Of a DNA stretch of 62,598 nt, positions 9,518 to 14,632 are shown piece after piece. Origin of the DNA: Pseudomonadota bacterium. GTDB taxonomy: Bacteria; Bdellovibrionota; Bdellovibrionia; Bdellovibrionales; JACTMU01. Made by a program: the position numbers and the translations under genes. The stretch lies in the NCBI GenBank assembly GCA_014584465.1, contig JACTMU010000105.1, positions 1 through 62,598 on the forward strand, given 5' to 3'. The notes beneath the pieces were generated by a model. It did not search any database, was not told where the DNA came from, and saw nothing but the letters and a program-made list of their open reading frames with translations. The first letter of the stretch is position 1. Each line of letters opens with the position of its first letter.

Positions 9518-9805
9518 ATGCCGGCGGTTCGAGGGTTTCTTCTTCTTTTGGTATTTGGAGTGTGTTCCTATTATGGTGAATATTCGTTGGCGTGTGGGTC
9601 CGAGGGCTCATGTGCAGAGGAGGGGCACAGTTGTCAGGGAGGTGCTCAGATGAATGGGATGAGCAATGAGGAGCTCTTTTCGATGATGGACACCAATAAG
9701 GACGGGAAGGTTGACAAGAAGGAGTTCGCCGCTCATCACAAGTCGAATCATCACCACGGATCAGAGATGGGGAAGGCCAAGACTGAACCAGCCAAGCCCC
9801 AATAG
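9518..9805 (+). CDS. Small secreted EF-hand protein
   Basis: A 95-residue protein with GGGAGG before the ATG. A hydrophobic signal (FLLLLVFGVCSYYGEYSLA) is followed by a Cys-rich segment (CGSEGSCAEEGHSCQGG) and one canonical EF-hand loop (DTNKDGKVDKKEF, near residues 59-71). A His-rich tail (HHKSNHHHGSEMGK) follows. It may bind calcium and perhaps transition metals in the periplasm or outside the cell. Single-EF-hand exported proteins of this kind are common but poorly characterised. Confidence 0.75.
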   Translation: MPAVRGFLLLLVFGVCSYYGEYSLACGSEGSCAEEGHSCQGGAQMNGMSNEELFSMMDTNKDGKVDKKEFAAHHKSNHHHGSEMGKAKTEPAKPQ

Positions 9806-9831
9806 GCGCGCCCAGCATCGGATGCTTGCCC

Positions 9832-11091
9832 TTATTCAAGATAGGGGAAGTTAAAACCCCGAACTTCGGTGGGCGGGCTGCCCTCAAGGCCGACTCTCTT
9901 TAGGAGTCCCAGTCGTGAGGGGTAAAGCAGGTAAAGGTGTTCGGATGAAAGTCGTGTAAGTGTCTCGTTTTCGATGGAAAGATCAGCAAGAGATAGAAAG
10001 TCAGAGTATCGGTAACGGTGCAAACTTCGTCCACTGAGGATGTCGTCCACTGTTTTGACGCTTTGATCATCGTTGTCAGGAAGAGGACCTTCAATGAAGG
10101 TCCATCGATCCGTAGTGGCGTCAAGCAGAGAAAAGAGCAGGGGCTTCGTTTCACGTACAAGAGATTTAGTTCCAATCGTGGTGCCGTTAACGTAGTAGAG
10201 GGTGAGTTTTCCATGGGACTCTGAAGAGTCCAGGATGGCGAAATGAGGTACATTGCTTTTGGAGGCCTTCAAGAGAGATTGAGTGGAGAGATCAATCTCA
10301 ATTTGATCTAAGATCTCCCCAGTGTCTATGTTGAAGAGCATCGCTTGGGATCTTCCTCGAATCAAGACGGACTCGGGATGCTCGTTGGTCATGCCGACCC
10401 ACAAAATGTCCTTTTCCATGGGAGAAGCTGTCTCAGTAAAGATCCATTTTTTTTCTGACAGAGACTCTTCGACTTGGACGATCGCAATTTTTCGATCACT
10501 CAGTGCGAGAATCAACTCGCCACGACTGTTGAGATCTCCAGCCAGGAGGGAACGAGAATCACCCAAAACAGGTCCTGCGGTCCACGAATCGACCACGTGA
10601 CCATTAGGATCTAATTTAAGAAAGGAGGTCGCAGAGTTGAAGTCATGGACGATGAGGTAGCCCTGGTCAAAGTCATAGGCGATTGACTTGATCACTCCTC
10701 GCAGCTGCACAGGTTGATGAACTCCCTGGCCCAAATGGTCATAGATAGAGATGTTGGTCGAAGTCATGTCAATCAAGTAGTTGCCACTTGGGGGATTTAG
10801 GAGGAAGTGGGATTGAGATGCATAGAGTGGCTTCAGAGCAAAGAGATGCTTCATCTGATTGAGGTTGAATTTATGAATCAATTGAACTCTCTTATCGTAC
10901 ATATAGACAAACTCATCGCTTGAGCTGTCAACTCTTGCGACCACGGTGAGCTCACTGGGGAGCTGCCCGACGATGTGATCATCCATATTGTTTTGAAATG
11001 GATCGCCATTGCATCCAAGAACCATGCTTAAAACGAAAGTCCATAAAGAGGTCCAACTCAATTTTTTTAAGAAGACAATGCTAGAATCCAT
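9832..11091 (-). CDS. Lipoprotein, probable beta-propeller fold
   Basis: A 419-residue protein with a lipobox ending at Cys27 (VLSMVLGC). The mature part has repeating blade-like beta segments (VARVDSSSDEFVYMYDKRVQ; LLAGDLNSRGELILALSDRK; LIVHDFNSATSFLKLDPNG) that suggest a propeller. AGGAG precedes the ATG. Its first 11 bases overlap the end of the HExxH gene upstream, so the two are co-transcribed with the TIGR02147 gene. Function unknown; probably surface or periplasmic. It ends 26 bases from the convergent EF-hand gene. Confidence 0.7.
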   Translation of the reverse strand: MDSSIVFLKKLSWTSLWTFVLSMVLGCNGDPFQNNMDDHIVGQLPSELTVVARVDSSSDEFVYMYDKRVQLIHKFNLNQMKHLFALKPLYASQSHFLLNPPSGNYLIDMTSTNISIYDHLGQGVHQPVQLRGVIKSIAYDFDQGYLIVHDFNSATSFLKLDPNGHVVDSWTAGPVLGDSRSLLAGDLNSRGELILALSDRKIAIVQVEESLSEKKWIFTETASPMEKDILWVGMTNEHPESVLIRGRSQAMLFNIDTGEILDQIEIDLSTQSLLKASKSNVPHFAILDSSESHGKLTLYYVNGTTIGTKSLVRETKPLLFSLLDATTDRWTFIEGPLPDNDDQSVKTVDDILSGRSLHRYRYSDFLSLADLSIENETLTRLSSEHLYLLYPSRLGLLKRVGLEGSPPTEVRGFNFPYLE

Positions 11092-12295
11092 AGTGAACTC
11101 CTAAATGTGTGGTCCATAAATTTTTGTTGTAAGAGAGGTTCAAACTTCGATATTCGTAATTGGCAGAGAACAGTTCGCTTCCCAACGTGAGCCACATTCC
11201 GAAGTTCAGTGGGAAGTAGTAGTCAAAACCTAAAGCCAACTGAGGCTTATGAAGTGATTCTTTATCTTCGTCCGTTATAGAAACGGAGGGATCGGAGGCC
11301 TCATAAGTGTAGGCAGAGAGGTGAAGTCCCACCTTGACAAGAAGGTGAGACTGTCCCCAAAAGGTCAGGGGATCTTTGAATGGGGAGTAGCAAAAGGAGG
11401 CGCCCAATTCAACACCTGGAATCGTCTCCTTAACTTCGAGACTCTCCTCAAGCTTCTTGGAAAACGTGATTGAGCGTGCCGCAACGTAAGAACCAATCCA
11501 GCTCCACTGATAGCGAAACTCGAACAGGGCTCCCCAGCCACCGGTCGTGTTCAAGAGATAGGTACGATCACCAGAGGAGACGGCTGTAGATCCCAGTTTG
11601 AGCCCGACCCAACGCCGTTTGTTACTTCGAGAGAGGTTGAAGGTATCTGAATAGTGCCCCAGTTGTTTGAGCTCGACGGCCTTCATGGCCACTGTGGCCC
11701 CGAGTGAATTGAGAAGCTTTCGTCCGCCACCGGCATTCTTAAAGGGCCCATAGGATCCCGTATCTGTGATCGCATCTTCACCAATTTTGACAAGATGGAA
11801 GAGTTCATGGGTCAAAAGGAAGATGCGCTCTTTTTGTTTAAGGTCCAAGAATCGAGGGCGATGGATCGTGATCTGCTGTTTTGCCGCATCGGTGACCGCA
11901 TCTACGACTTTGTGATCTCCCTCGGTGTTGATGGTGATGGCGGTCTCGGCCCAGAAGAACTGAAGAGAAGATTGTGGATCAAGAAGACTTGAAAGATGGC
12001 TCCGTTGGTTCCAGAGCATCTCTTTGCAAAACTCTTGCTCATGGTCGTTGAGCTGCAGGAGAGGTTCACAGAGTGGATCTTGAGCAAGCTCTTCAGGACA
12101 AGAGCATTCACTCTTTTCATCAAGTTTTTGAAGGGTCTCTTGGATCTGTTTGATGGTGATCAGCAGATCCACATCGGTCGTCGTTCCCCCATTTCCTACA
12201 AACGTTGAAGCAAACACCATCTGAGGCGCAAAGAAGATGAGAAGGGGGATCAAAAGGGCCTTGATCTCCAGTCCAAATCGAAACTTAGATTTCAC
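11081..12295 (-). CDS. Exported HExxH protein with barrel-like C-terminus
   Basis: I start it at the GTG at 12295, which has a perfect AGGAGGT upstream; a longer ORF to 12391 exists. That gives 404 residues. A signal peptide (IKALLIPLLIFFAPQMVFA) is followed by a Cys-containing stretch and then a HELFH motif at residues 163-167, the zinc-binding signature of metallopeptidases, within LLTHELFHLVKIGEDAI. The C-terminal 200 residues alternate aromatic and polar residues and end in HLGVHYGF, which fits an outer-membrane beta barrel. I cannot place it in a known family. It overlaps the regulator upstream (11 bases) and the lipoprotein downstream (11 bases), so the three probably act together. Confidence 0.65.
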   Translation of the reverse strand: MKSKFRFGLEIKALLIPLLIFFAPQMVFASTFVGNGGTTTDVDLLITIKQIQETLQKLDEKSECSCPEELAQDPLCEPLLQLNDHEQEFCKEMLWNQRSHLSSLLDPQSSLQFFWAETAITINTEGDHKVVDAVTDAAKQQITIHRPRFLDLKQKERIFLLTHELFHLVKIGEDAITDTGSYGPFKNAGGGRKLLNSLGATVAMKAVELKQLGHYSDTFNLSRSNKRRWVGLKLGSTAVSSGDRTYLLNTTGGWGALFEFRYQWSWIGSYVAARSITFSKKLEESLEVKETIPGVELGASFCYSPFKDPLTFWGQSHLLVKVGLHLSAYTYEASDPSVSITDEDKESLHKPQLALGFDYYFPLNFGMWLTLGSELFSANYEYRSLNLSYNKNLWTTHLGVHYGF

Positions 12296-13121
12296 GCGCA
12301 CCTCCTGTGGGCGAGAGATTGAGAATGAATTGATAGAGCTGACGACCATGATTGTGGTTTTCAGAGGCAAATTTCTTAAGCTCTTCTGCAAAATCTGCGA
12401 TCAGTTCCAGGAGTTGGGCATACCCCTCTTCACTCAGAGGAAGGATCAATGCATTGGCGTAGCGGCGGTGAGGTCCAAAAAGATCTATGGCATCTCGGGC
12501 AACCCCGAGTGCGCCCTTATGAAATTGTCGGATCTTGTGATCGGAGATTCCAGGGTCTGCGACCGCAAGTTGGGTCTCAACGACGATTCGATGATCGAGA
12601 GTTTTGCGTAGATAACCTTCTCGTAGCAAAAATCTGAGAGAGCCCTCGAGTCTCTTTCGTGAAGCAAGATGGGAGAGCATCTGAAACAAGAGCTCGGGAT
12701 TCTTCTGGACATCTTCGATCTGAAAGCAGTCCTTGACGTAGACGTTGATCCAATCTTTGAGAATGTGGGTGGAGACCTCTCTTTGTCGCGAGGGGCTTTC
12801 ATTTGCAGTGGGATTCACAGAGGTTCCATCCTGACGGTGTCGGTGGCCCTCAGCCTGTCTGATCCAATCACTGAGGTAGCGTCTCTCCTTAGGAGTCAAA
12901 TGGAGGAGTTTGCCGATCTCTGAGACGCGATCGAGGTTGATCTTTCGTTTTCGTTTGAGAATCAATGAAATAAGGGATGGAGAGACTCGACGGAGGCTCT
13001 GAGTTTCACCTTTGATCGAATAGGAGGGATCAACTCGTTTTTGGTAAGAGATCATCTCTTGAACAAAGTCGACCACATCGTGATATTCGCTGATCACAGG
13101 TCGTTGCACTGGATCCCCCAT
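12285..13121 (-). CDS. TIGR02147 / DUF4423 family regulator
   Basis: A 278-residue protein from ATG 13121; a TTG immediately upstream is also in frame. An N-terminal HTH-like region (SPSLISLILKRKRKINLDRV then GKLLHLTPKERRYLSDWI) is followed by the DUF4423 domain (KDWINVYVKDCFQIEDVQKN, SHLASRKRLEGSLRFLLREG, and VARDAIDLFGPHRRYANALI near the end). It is a second family member in this window, and here it heads an operon with the HExxH and lipoprotein genes, overlapping the first. A short palindrome lies 117 bases upstream and may be its operator. Confidence 0.8.
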   Translation of the reverse strand: MGDPVQRPVISEYHDVVDFVQEMISYQKRVDPSYSIKGETQSLRRVSPSLISLILKRKRKINLDRVSEIGKLLHLTPKERRYLSDWIRQAEGHRHRQDGTSVNPTANESPSRQREVSTHILKDWINVYVKDCFQIEDVQKNPELLFQMLSHLASRKRLEGSLRFLLREGYLRKTLDHRIVVETQLAVADPGISDHKIRQFHKGALGVARDAIDLFGPHRRYANALILPLSEEGYAQLLELIADFAEELKKFASENHNHGRQLYQFILNLSPTGGAREI

Positions 13122-13237
13122 CAAACCTCAAACTCTCCCAGACTCTATTCGTTGAAGTGAAAATAGAAGGGGCCATCTTCATGGCTCCCTGTTTGACTCT
13201 ATTCTATTGAGATGGCTTATCTTTTCAACTCATTTGA

Positions 13238-13252
13238 TTTTACATTGTAAAA
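13238..13252. promoter_or_regulatory. Palindrome, possible operator
   Basis: TTTTAC ATT GTAAAA is a perfect palindrome with a 3-base centre. It lies upstream of the TIGR02147 operon (start 13121) and beyond the 3' end of bioA. An operator for the regulator operon is plausible but not shown. Confidence 0.35.
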
Positions 13253-13384
13253 CAATGCAGAGTGTCAAAATCAATGTCAAAGTCGATGGATGGTCACCAA
13301 TCGTCGGAGACGAAGTAATCGTCTGGGACGCCACCTGGAGTCGCTGTTCCCCCCATAGCTCCATCGGAGATCTGGTACAAATAT

Positions 13385-14632
13385 TTAAAGAAATGAAGCA
13401 ATGATCTTCCATGCACTGGCAACTTCTGCCGGAGTTGTGCAGTAGGGTGGCAGGAGATAAATCGTGCTGCCCAGTGGACGCAGAAATAGGCCGTGATTGA
13501 GTGCAGATCGACTCAACTCCTGCTGAAAAGTAGCACCATAGGGAAGGTCGGCTTTGAGTTCCACGACCCCTATGGCCCCTAGGGACCGCGTACTTCGAAC
13601 ACCCTCCATCATCGCAAAATCAGAAAGGGACCTTCGGTGAGCGCGTTCGATCTCTAAAACTCTTTCAAGGACTGGTTCACGTTTAAATATTTCAAGACTC
13701 GCAACGGCGGCTGCGCATGAAATTGGGTTTCCGGTGAAGCTATGTCCATGAAAGAGCATCCGATCGACATCATCAGAATAGAAGGCATTGTAAATTTCCT
13801 GTGTTGCAGCGGTCAGTGAGAGAGGAAGAAGCCCCCCAGTTAGCCCTTTTGAAAGACATAGGATATCGGGAACAAAGCCCACCTGTTCAAAAGCAAAGAG
13901 TGATCCTGTTCTTCCAAGCCCAGTCATAACCTCATCGAAGATCACCAAAATCTTCTCTTGTCGAGCCAAATCGCAGATGGCTTTGAGAAGCTTTGGCGGA
14001 GTGAAGATCATGCCACCTGCTCCCTGAACCAAAGGTTCAATCAGAATCGCAGCGATCTCTCCACGATGATGATCCATCTTCTTTCGAAAATTCTCAATCC
14101 AAAGCTTCCCGCCCTCTTCCTCCGTTCCGCCCTGTTCGCAGCAGATGACATCGAATTGGAGATCTCCATAGGCCTTGGAAAAGGCTGTGGTGCCACTCAC
14201 GCTCATGGCACCACAGGTGTCTCCGTGATAACCGTGCTCGAAAATAAGAAAGCGTTTCTTTTGAGGAAGACCACTTTGAGACCAGTACTGGTAGACCATT
14301 TTGATGGCCACTTCAACCGCCGTTGAGCCATTGTCGGAAAAGAAGAGATGGCTGAGTGATTCTGGAAGGACCTCTCCCAACAACTCCGTAAGCCTCTCGG
14401 CAGGTTCATGGGAAAAATTTGCAAAGACAACTTGATCCAGTTTGCGGCACTGGCGAGCGATCGCTTCACTCAAATATGGATGGTTATGGCCATGGGTGAT
14501 GACCCACCAGCTGGAGATCCCATCGAGAATCTTTGCTCCACTCTTGAGGTAGAGATAGGAGCCCTGGGAGGACTCAACTCTTAGAGGCTCAGGGGCAATC
14601 TTCATCTGTGTGTAGGGCCGCCAGATCTTCAT
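13385..14632 (-). CDS. bioA: Adenosylmethionine-8-amino-7-oxononanoate aminotransferase
   Basis: BioA transfers the amino group of S-adenosylmethionine to KAPA to give DAPA in biotin synthesis, using pyridoxal phosphate. The 415-residue protein has the usual family features: WRPYTQMK at the start, LDGISSWWVITHGHNHP, NGSTAVEVAIKM, IFEHGYHGDTCGAMSVSG, the Asp of IFDEVMTGLGRTG and the PLP-lysine segment LSKGLTGGLLPLS. ATG 14632 gives the start expected for the family; a TTG at 14662 would add 10 residues. No other bio gene is present nearby. It is divergent from an HNH gene remnant. Confidence 0.92.
   Translation of the reverse strand: MKIWRPYTQMKIAPEPLRVESSQGSYLYLKSGAKILDGISSWWVITHGHNHPYLSEAIARQCRKLDQVVFANFSHEPAERLTELLGEVLPESLSHLFFSDNGSTAVEVAIKMVYQYWSQSGLPQKKRFLIFEHGYHGDTCGAMSVSGTTAFSKAYGDLQFDVICCEQGGTEEEGGKLWIENFRKKMDHHRGEIAAILIEPLVQGAGGMIFTPPKLLKAICDLARQEKILVIFDEVMTGLGRTGSLFAFEQVGFVPDILCLSKGLTGGLLPLSLTAATQEIYNAFYSDDVDRMLFHGHSFTGNPISCAAAVASLEIFKREPVLERVLEIERAHRRSLSDFAMMEGVRSTRSLGAIGVVELKADLPYGATFQQELSRSALNHGLFLRPLGSTIYLLPPYCTTPAEVASAWKIIASFL

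Follow-up and report, generated by a model that had tools for sequence, protein, structure and literature searches.

As far as the portions of the literature at hand go, the nearest functional parallels that we found for the locus described here are the JspA-LppA system of Sinorhizobium meliloti, in which an extracytoplasmic metalloprotease and a lipoprotein act jointly (PMC10659215, excerpted text), and BepA, a periplasmic metalloprotease of the M48 family that takes part in outer-membrane assembly (PMC7950410, excerpted text). The locus is a set of three overlapping genes in a stretch of 62,598 nucleotides (nt) from a bacterium of the Bdellovibrionales (contig JACTMU010000105.1 of assembly GCA_014584465.1; hereafter the window), and comprises a gene for a regulator of the TIGR02147/DUF4423 family (REG), a gene for an exported protein with an HExxH motif and a predicted barrel at its C-terminus (HEL) and a gene for a predicted propeller lipoprotein (LIP). 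This triad is a real, conserved and self-contained cassette of undescribed composition: the combination of an aspzincin-like domain, an outer-membrane barrel and a propeller lipoprotein was not found in the literature searched, some of it represented by excerpts, and this agrees with the preliminary description of the window, whose author knew of no described system of this composition.

Relatives of HEL were sought in four collections, namely 59 genomes (5 with a match, the window's own genome included), a set with a single genome per species for 84,980 species (18 loci), 140 genomes from the order (matches in 23) and 368 from the phylum (matches in 33, 16 of which are of the full-length type as read from the table of matches). 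The window, the 18 species-level loci and six others (L081, L062, L082, L083, L084 and L087) make up 25 distinct loci, and the loci with relatives are labelled Bdellovibrionia, Bdellovibrionales, Bdellovibrionaceae, Bdellovibrio, Oligoflexia, Oligoflexales, Oligoflexaceae, or simply Proteobacteria or bacterium. REG lies immediately 5' of HEL, and LIP immediately 3' of it, in all 24 loci that can be read on the side concerned; the gene order, which the preliminary description had proposed to compare across genomes, is thus kept. L087 begins within HEL, and L044 stops just after HEL, with LIP on another contig of the same genome (G104). REG is incomplete in three loci (cut in L046 and L050, split in L040), and so is LIP (cut in L039, L049 and L062). 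The genes that flank the triad vary from locus to locus.

HEL and LIP overlap by 11 nt at 22 of 24 junctions and by 17 nt at the other two. The junctions between REG and HEL (n = 24) are more varied, with overlaps of 4 nt in 14, 8 nt in two, 11 nt in three and 17 nt in one, and small gaps in the remaining four. The 11-base overlaps that had been reported for the window, and that are exact at both of its junctions (GTGAAATCTAA and ATGGATTCTAG), are therefore a shared feature of the triads at HEL/LIP and not at REG/HEL. Translation of HEL and LIP is likely to be coupled, since both the ATG of LIP and a GGAG-like element sit within the codons for the last strand of HEL (consensus L-G-V-S-Y-G-F). 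A LIP profile found matches in 17 of the 368 genomes of the phylum, which are the 16 with a full-length-type, barrel-bearing HEL plus a fragment in one other (G127), so that full-length LIP is present only where HEL carries its barrel. The pairwise distances of REG, HEL and LIP correlate with each other (r 0.83-0.87 over 13 loci; none of 2000 permutations reaches that), a correlation for which shared descent alone may account.

The putative catalytic site of HEL does not vary. HExxH is present in all 25 loci, so that the variability which the preliminary description would have counted against its proposal did not appear, and is followed by an Asp 11 residues on in each of the 24 that can be read there; an apparent insertion in one HEL proved to be unreadable sequence. 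Both elements recur in all five short forms of HEL (L021 and L089-L092), which follow a REG gene, start with GNGG, and have neither a barrel match nor an adjacent LIP; four of them (L089-L092) also have a small frame of exported appearance 5' of REG. The site of deuterolysin, as given in an excerpt of one source, consists of His128, His132 and position 143, which is a spacing of +11 (PMC12663325); the same excerpt names residue 129 as Asp and 143 as Glu, labels that we take to be swapped because HExxH demands Glu at 129. Judged from these residues, HExxH and Asp178 would form the zinc site of HEL. Eighteen aligned HEL sequences share four unvaried Cys and an almost unvaried start, STF[VI]GNGG, after the signal sequence, and the last residue is Phe in 20 of the 25 loci (Phe or Tyr in 21; one exception is a shortened frame).

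A structural model of HEL was computed from 18 sequences, drawn from the window and from 17 species-level loci (the eighteenth, L050, was omitted), with a mean predicted local distance difference test score (pLDDT) of 86.2 and a predicted template modeling score (pTM) of 0.78; pLDDT falls below 50 at residues 21-39. Its N-terminal domain mixes helices and strands, and eight main strands follow in residues 228-403. OmpA, NspA, Ail and OmpX head the Foldseek list, with autotransporter rows further down, and VIA-align gives the barrel a Z of 17.6 against OmpA. For residues 34-209 of the predicted model, alignment with deuterolysin (1EB6) gives a Z of 10.7 over 148 residues at a root mean square deviation of 3.9; 1EB6 is the sole soluble peptidase among the 50 matches listed, the rows for Pla fitting the barrel. 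HEL is accordingly modeled as a deuterolysin-like (aspzincin) domain on an OmpA-type barrel of eight strands. PhageMetallopep matches 16 of the 18 HEL members, the window's HEL falling below its cut-off; the barrel family PF13505 matches 3 of 18 (best 5.9e-6) and Peptidase_M48 matches 2 of 18 (best E 0.0046), neither of them in the window's own HEL, and HEL is not assigned to M48. Selecase and OmpX give weak matches (E 0.03 and 0.7). Assignment of HEL or LIP to a described family was rejected, as neither is named by any of the models of Pfam, NCBIfam and PADLOC.

LIP was modeled from 16 sequences, those of the window and of 15 species-level loci (in the other three, L039, L044 and L049, it is cut or absent), with a pLDDT of 85.6 and a pTM of 0.82. 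The model resembles WD40 and eight-bladed propellers (Z 16-19), chains of BamB occur in its Foldseek list (9cnz_B, TMq 0.49), and the Pfam models for PQQ and BamB give no match at E 0.5. LIP is predicted to be a lipidated propeller protein of the outer membrane; propellers are common, and no function can be assigned from the fold. The modeled structures of the two proteins bear out the barrel-like end of the exported HELFH protein and the propeller-like lipoprotein that had been proposed from the sequence; the signal sequence of LIP ends in Cys27.

The remaining member, REG, was likewise correctly recognized as a TIGR02147 regulator: it scores 72.1 bits against the family cut-off of 50 and matches DUF4423 at E 4.7e-15. 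A DUF4423 match is present in all 15 REG relatives aligned (the window and 14 of the 18 loci; L040, L046 and L050 are incomplete and L049 was omitted). PADLOC gives it a weak match to DpdH (E 0.0017). Comparison of the regions upstream of REG revealed a palindrome, TTTAC-N3-GTAAA. The exact form TTTACNNNGTAAA stands no more than 200 nt from REG in 19 of the 21 triad loci, where first-order resampling leads one to expect 0.016, several of these loci being closely related and thus not 21 independent cases. In the two exceptions the palindrome has one mismatch (L082) or lies about 1 kb upstream (L051). It has two sites overall in the window's own genome and 98 in about 44 Mb summed over 13 others. 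In L040 (seen again as L019, 8164-10516) REG is interrupted by an IS3-like element, HEL and LIP being still open; beyond the element lie the start of REG and the palindrome.

A sigma-70-like match, TTGAAA-N16-TAGAAT, is the sole one in positions 9700-13400; shuffled sequences average 3.2, and the match, weak alone, is called a promoter because it is located directly downstream of the palindrome. The placement of the palindrome upstream of the -35 element suggests activation, and REG would on this evidence more likely be an activator than a repressor of the operon; both its binding to the palindrome and the sign of regulation are inferences. Ten of 21 loci have a CGATA box 41-42 nt past the palindrome, in seven of them as CCGATA (L036, L045, L047-L049, L052 and L053); the box is missing in the window. 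In Bdellovibrio the attack-phase FliA promoters have been given as TTAAG-N16-CCGATA, with CCGATA as the -10 element (PMC3627812, excerpted text). A general FliA promoter for the triads was considered and rejected, since visual inspection showed a suitable -35 in L047 and L049 alone. A wider palindrome regulon was also dropped. Among 12 further sites with an AAW centre, seven lie 12-150 nt upstream of exported-looking frames and five inside frames; with the triads' own sites subtracted, there are 18 such sites in the 16 triad genomes and 100 in the other 124 genomes of the order, that is, 1.1 against 0.8 per genome, which is no clear enrichment.

Table 1. Features of the triad and its upstream region in the window
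Feature	Position	Strand	Remarks
REG, TIGR02147/DUF4423 protein, 278 amino acids (aa)	12285..13121	-	ATG 13121 (alternative start TTG 13124)
HEL, exported protein, 404 aa	11081..12295	-	GTG 12295 with AGGAGG in front
LIP, predicted lipoprotein, 419 aa, Cys27	9832..11091	-	ATG 11091
REG/HEL overlap, 11 nt	12285..12295	-	
HEL/LIP overlap, 11 nt	11081..11091	-	same length in 22/24 junctions
HEL mature start STFVGNGG and predicted aspzincin-like domain, about residues 30-220	11636..12208	-	1EB6, Z 10.7 for 34-209
HELFH, residues 163-167	11795..11809	-	Asp178 at 11762-11764
HEL predicted eight-strand barrel, about residues 224-404	11084..11626	-	OmpA, Z 17.6; last residue Phe
LIP predicted beta-propeller, about residues 46-414	within 9832..11091	-	
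Palindrome TTTACATTGTAAA (minus strand TTTACAATGTAAA)	13239..13251	strand-neutral	candidate REG binding site
Sigma-70-like promoter TTGAAA-N16-TAGAAT	13201..13228	-	

Two other genes of the window lie on its plus strand: a second TIGR02147 gene (2120-2956, 54.5 bits), without a same-strand exported neighbor of the HE type, and a gene for a small exported-looking EF-hand protein (9518-9802), convergent to LIP.

The window's own genome (3.75 Mb in 120 contigs) contains 16 matches to TIGR02147, and 76 loci with such genes were examined (all 16 of these, 30 of 65 in G013 and G081, and 30 of 44 in G084, G051 and G128). At 33 of the 76 a same-strand frame starts between -150 and +15 nt downstream of the regulator gene, and for 29 of these 33 coupled frames a crude predictor indicates export, compared with 156 of the 354 remaining frames (p 7e-7). 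Among the exported products of such coupled frames, many combine a GNGG or GGG start with HExxH, HExLG or HExxY, and in L149-L173, L128-L133, L025, L027 and L029 such a start goes with HExLG, HExxY or HExxW where HExxH would be expected. In profile comparisons HEL matches the HExLG group with a probability of 97.6 over 141 columns, and the HExxY group weakly (86.6 over 31 columns). A motif pattern tuned on the own genome together with G013 and G081, where it fits 20 of 49 adjacent against 2 of 222 other frames, was frozen and applied to the held-out G084, G051 and G128, where it is weak: it picks out 5 of 30 loci and fits 5 of the 35 adjacent frames compared with 2 of the 62 others (p 0.09). 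A rule of HE motifs for TIGR02147 neighbors in general was rejected for this reason. We entertain, with more doubt than conviction, the thought that TIGR02147 regulators might be the switches dedicated to a large superfamily, as yet unnamed, of zincin-like exported proteins in the Bdellovibrionota (GNGG start; HExxH, HExLG or HExxY), and that the triad might be its enzymatic branch, anchored in the outer membrane, which acquired a barrel and a propeller partner and is adjusted in cis through its own palindrome. More distant relatives of HEL (L121-L126; 380-850 aa, lipoprotein-like, with HExxH) belong to another family of the phylum and have no adjoining TIGR02147 gene, and two exported HE-motif proteins that do adjoin such genes continue into ankyrin repeats (L127, 3201-4484, by Pfam; L025, 768-3671, by eye).

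The interpretation of the triad to which we incline, giving it about an even chance, is that of a cassette that regulates itself and encodes a zinc protease, anchored in the outer membrane and facing the periplasm, together with its propeller partner. REG would bind the palindrome just 5' of its own promoter and control the operon, more probably by activation. HEL would be exported, with its C-terminal barrel inserted in the outer membrane and its N-terminal aspzincin-like domain on the periplasmic face, since the two termini of such a barrel lie on that side. LIP would be exported and lipidated, made in step with HEL by way of the 11-nt overlap, and might pair with the barrel form of HEL as a substrate adaptor or as a control of its activity, the resulting HEL-LIP unit trimming or degrading proteins at the outer membrane. 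The folds, lipidation and topology of the two proteins are predictions, and their complex is a supposition. Several observations weigh against this interpretation. The deuterolysin Z for the N-terminal domain is moderate; M35 models give no match in the 18 HEL members at E 0.5, and HEL is for this reason termed aspzincin-like rather than filed in M35; matches of REG to helix-turn-helix (HTH) models are weak (HTH_3 in 4 of 15 REG relatives, best 3.8e-5; HTH_31 in 2 of 15; neither in the window's own REG); and a role of LIP as receptor, sensor or inhibitor fits the same data. The earlier proposal of an envelope protease-receptor unit under its own regulator accordingly survives in part: the gene order, HExxH...D, the deuterolysin-like fold, the barrel, the propeller and the palindrome speak for the envelope, the protease-like member and the regulator, and nothing was found in favor of a receptor.

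Other explanations start from the same observations. HEL might be a metal- or peptide-binding protein with an aspzincin fold and no protease activity, with the barrel and LIP sensing or handling the ligand. Such a case is represented by the zincophore Pra1 of Candida, which has a deuterolysin fold, is thought not to cleave, and carries Arg in place of the catalytic Glu of HExxH (PMC12663325, excerpted text); the degenerate HExLG and HExxY of HEL relatives that adjoin TIGR02147 genes would also suit a binder. In HEL itself the Glu replaced in Pra1 is unvaried in 25 of 25 loci, and we consider a binder rather unlikely. Alternatively, HEL might be a harmful or prey-directed protease and LIP its co-translated inhibitor, protecting the cell that makes it. 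The restriction of full-length LIP to genomes with a barrel-bearing HEL, the 11-nt overlap kept in 22 of 24 junctions, the presence of predators among the host lineages and the CCGATA box in seven loci, which resembles attack-phase promoters, are all compatible with such an arrangement. The short HEL have the same HExxH...D site and no LIP, however, which means that the site itself needs no guard, and the barrel tethers HEL to the cell's own outer membrane; with the CCGATA box missing in the window as well, an inhibitor seems distinctly unlikely to us.

An autotransporter-like export of the N-terminal domain to the surface, where it would act outside the cell with LIP as a surface lipoprotein, is a quite improbable arrangement: the unvaried Cys would suit an exposed domain and autotransporter rows do occur low in the Foldseek list, but eight main strands are modeled, the best matches are of the OmpA/OmpX types, and the domain precedes strand 1, on the periplasmic side. 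Ordinary neighbors with no joint function have, in our judgment, next to no likelihood. TIGR02147 genes are numerous (the own genome has 16) and may lie anywhere, yet the triads share their order, overlaps, co-occurrence and palindrome amid differing flanking genes, and mere chance adjacency is ruled out because the order is kept in 24 of 24 readable loci. In pairs of the ImmA/IrrE type, a cytoplasmic HExxH protease adjoins a regulator that the protease cleaves. Assignment of the triad to that type was rejected, HEL having a signal sequence and a predicted outer-membrane barrel and Peptidase_M78 matching one of 18 members at E 0.06.

If the reading of the triad as a self-regulated protease cassette is correct, it would supply a DNA target and a function for a regulator family that has 12 to 43 matches apiece in six of the examined genomes and no tested member in the literature searched. 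It would also present an outer-membrane barrel as the tether of an aspzincin-like domain, with a propeller lipoprotein at its side, a combination absent from the literature searched. How proteolysis at the envelope is controlled is of importance in lineages with predators among them, and the cassette, with its three genes and a defined site, opens this control to experiment.

Set against the known systems, REG is a member of the TIGR02147/DUF4423 family by its cut-off; TIGR02147 found no mention in the papers searched, and the one DUF4423 protein that we saw reported, Bd3700, is tabulated as upregulated in the available part of one paper. JspA differs from HEL in being itself a lipoprotein and in belonging to a two-component pathway, and the excerpted text names no TIGR02147 gene, barrel or propeller for the JspA-LppA system (PMC10659215). 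HEL is like deuterolysin (aspzincin, M35) in the predicted fold of its N-terminal domain, in HExxH with an acidic residue at +11 and in its cysteine pairs, and unlike deuterolysin and Pra1 in its outer-membrane barrel, its GNGG start and the lack of an M35 Pfam match, its protease-like character being predicted. Its residues 223-404 resemble the barrels of OmpA and OmpX in their eight main strands and C-terminal Phe; in OmpA the periplasmic domain comes after the barrel and binds peptidoglycan, whereas the protease-like domain of HEL comes before it. LIP is comparable to BamB and other propeller lipoproteins as a predicted outer-membrane propeller lipoprotein, and differs from BamB in occurring only with HEL and in having no PQQ or BamB Pfam match. 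M48 proteases have Glu as their third ligand. BepA, so far as the excerpted text describes it, acts as a zinc protease on the periplasmic side of the outer membrane (PMC7950410), as proposed here for HEL, and is distinguished by its TPR domain, whereas HEL would have Asp as its third ligand and a barrel as its anchor.

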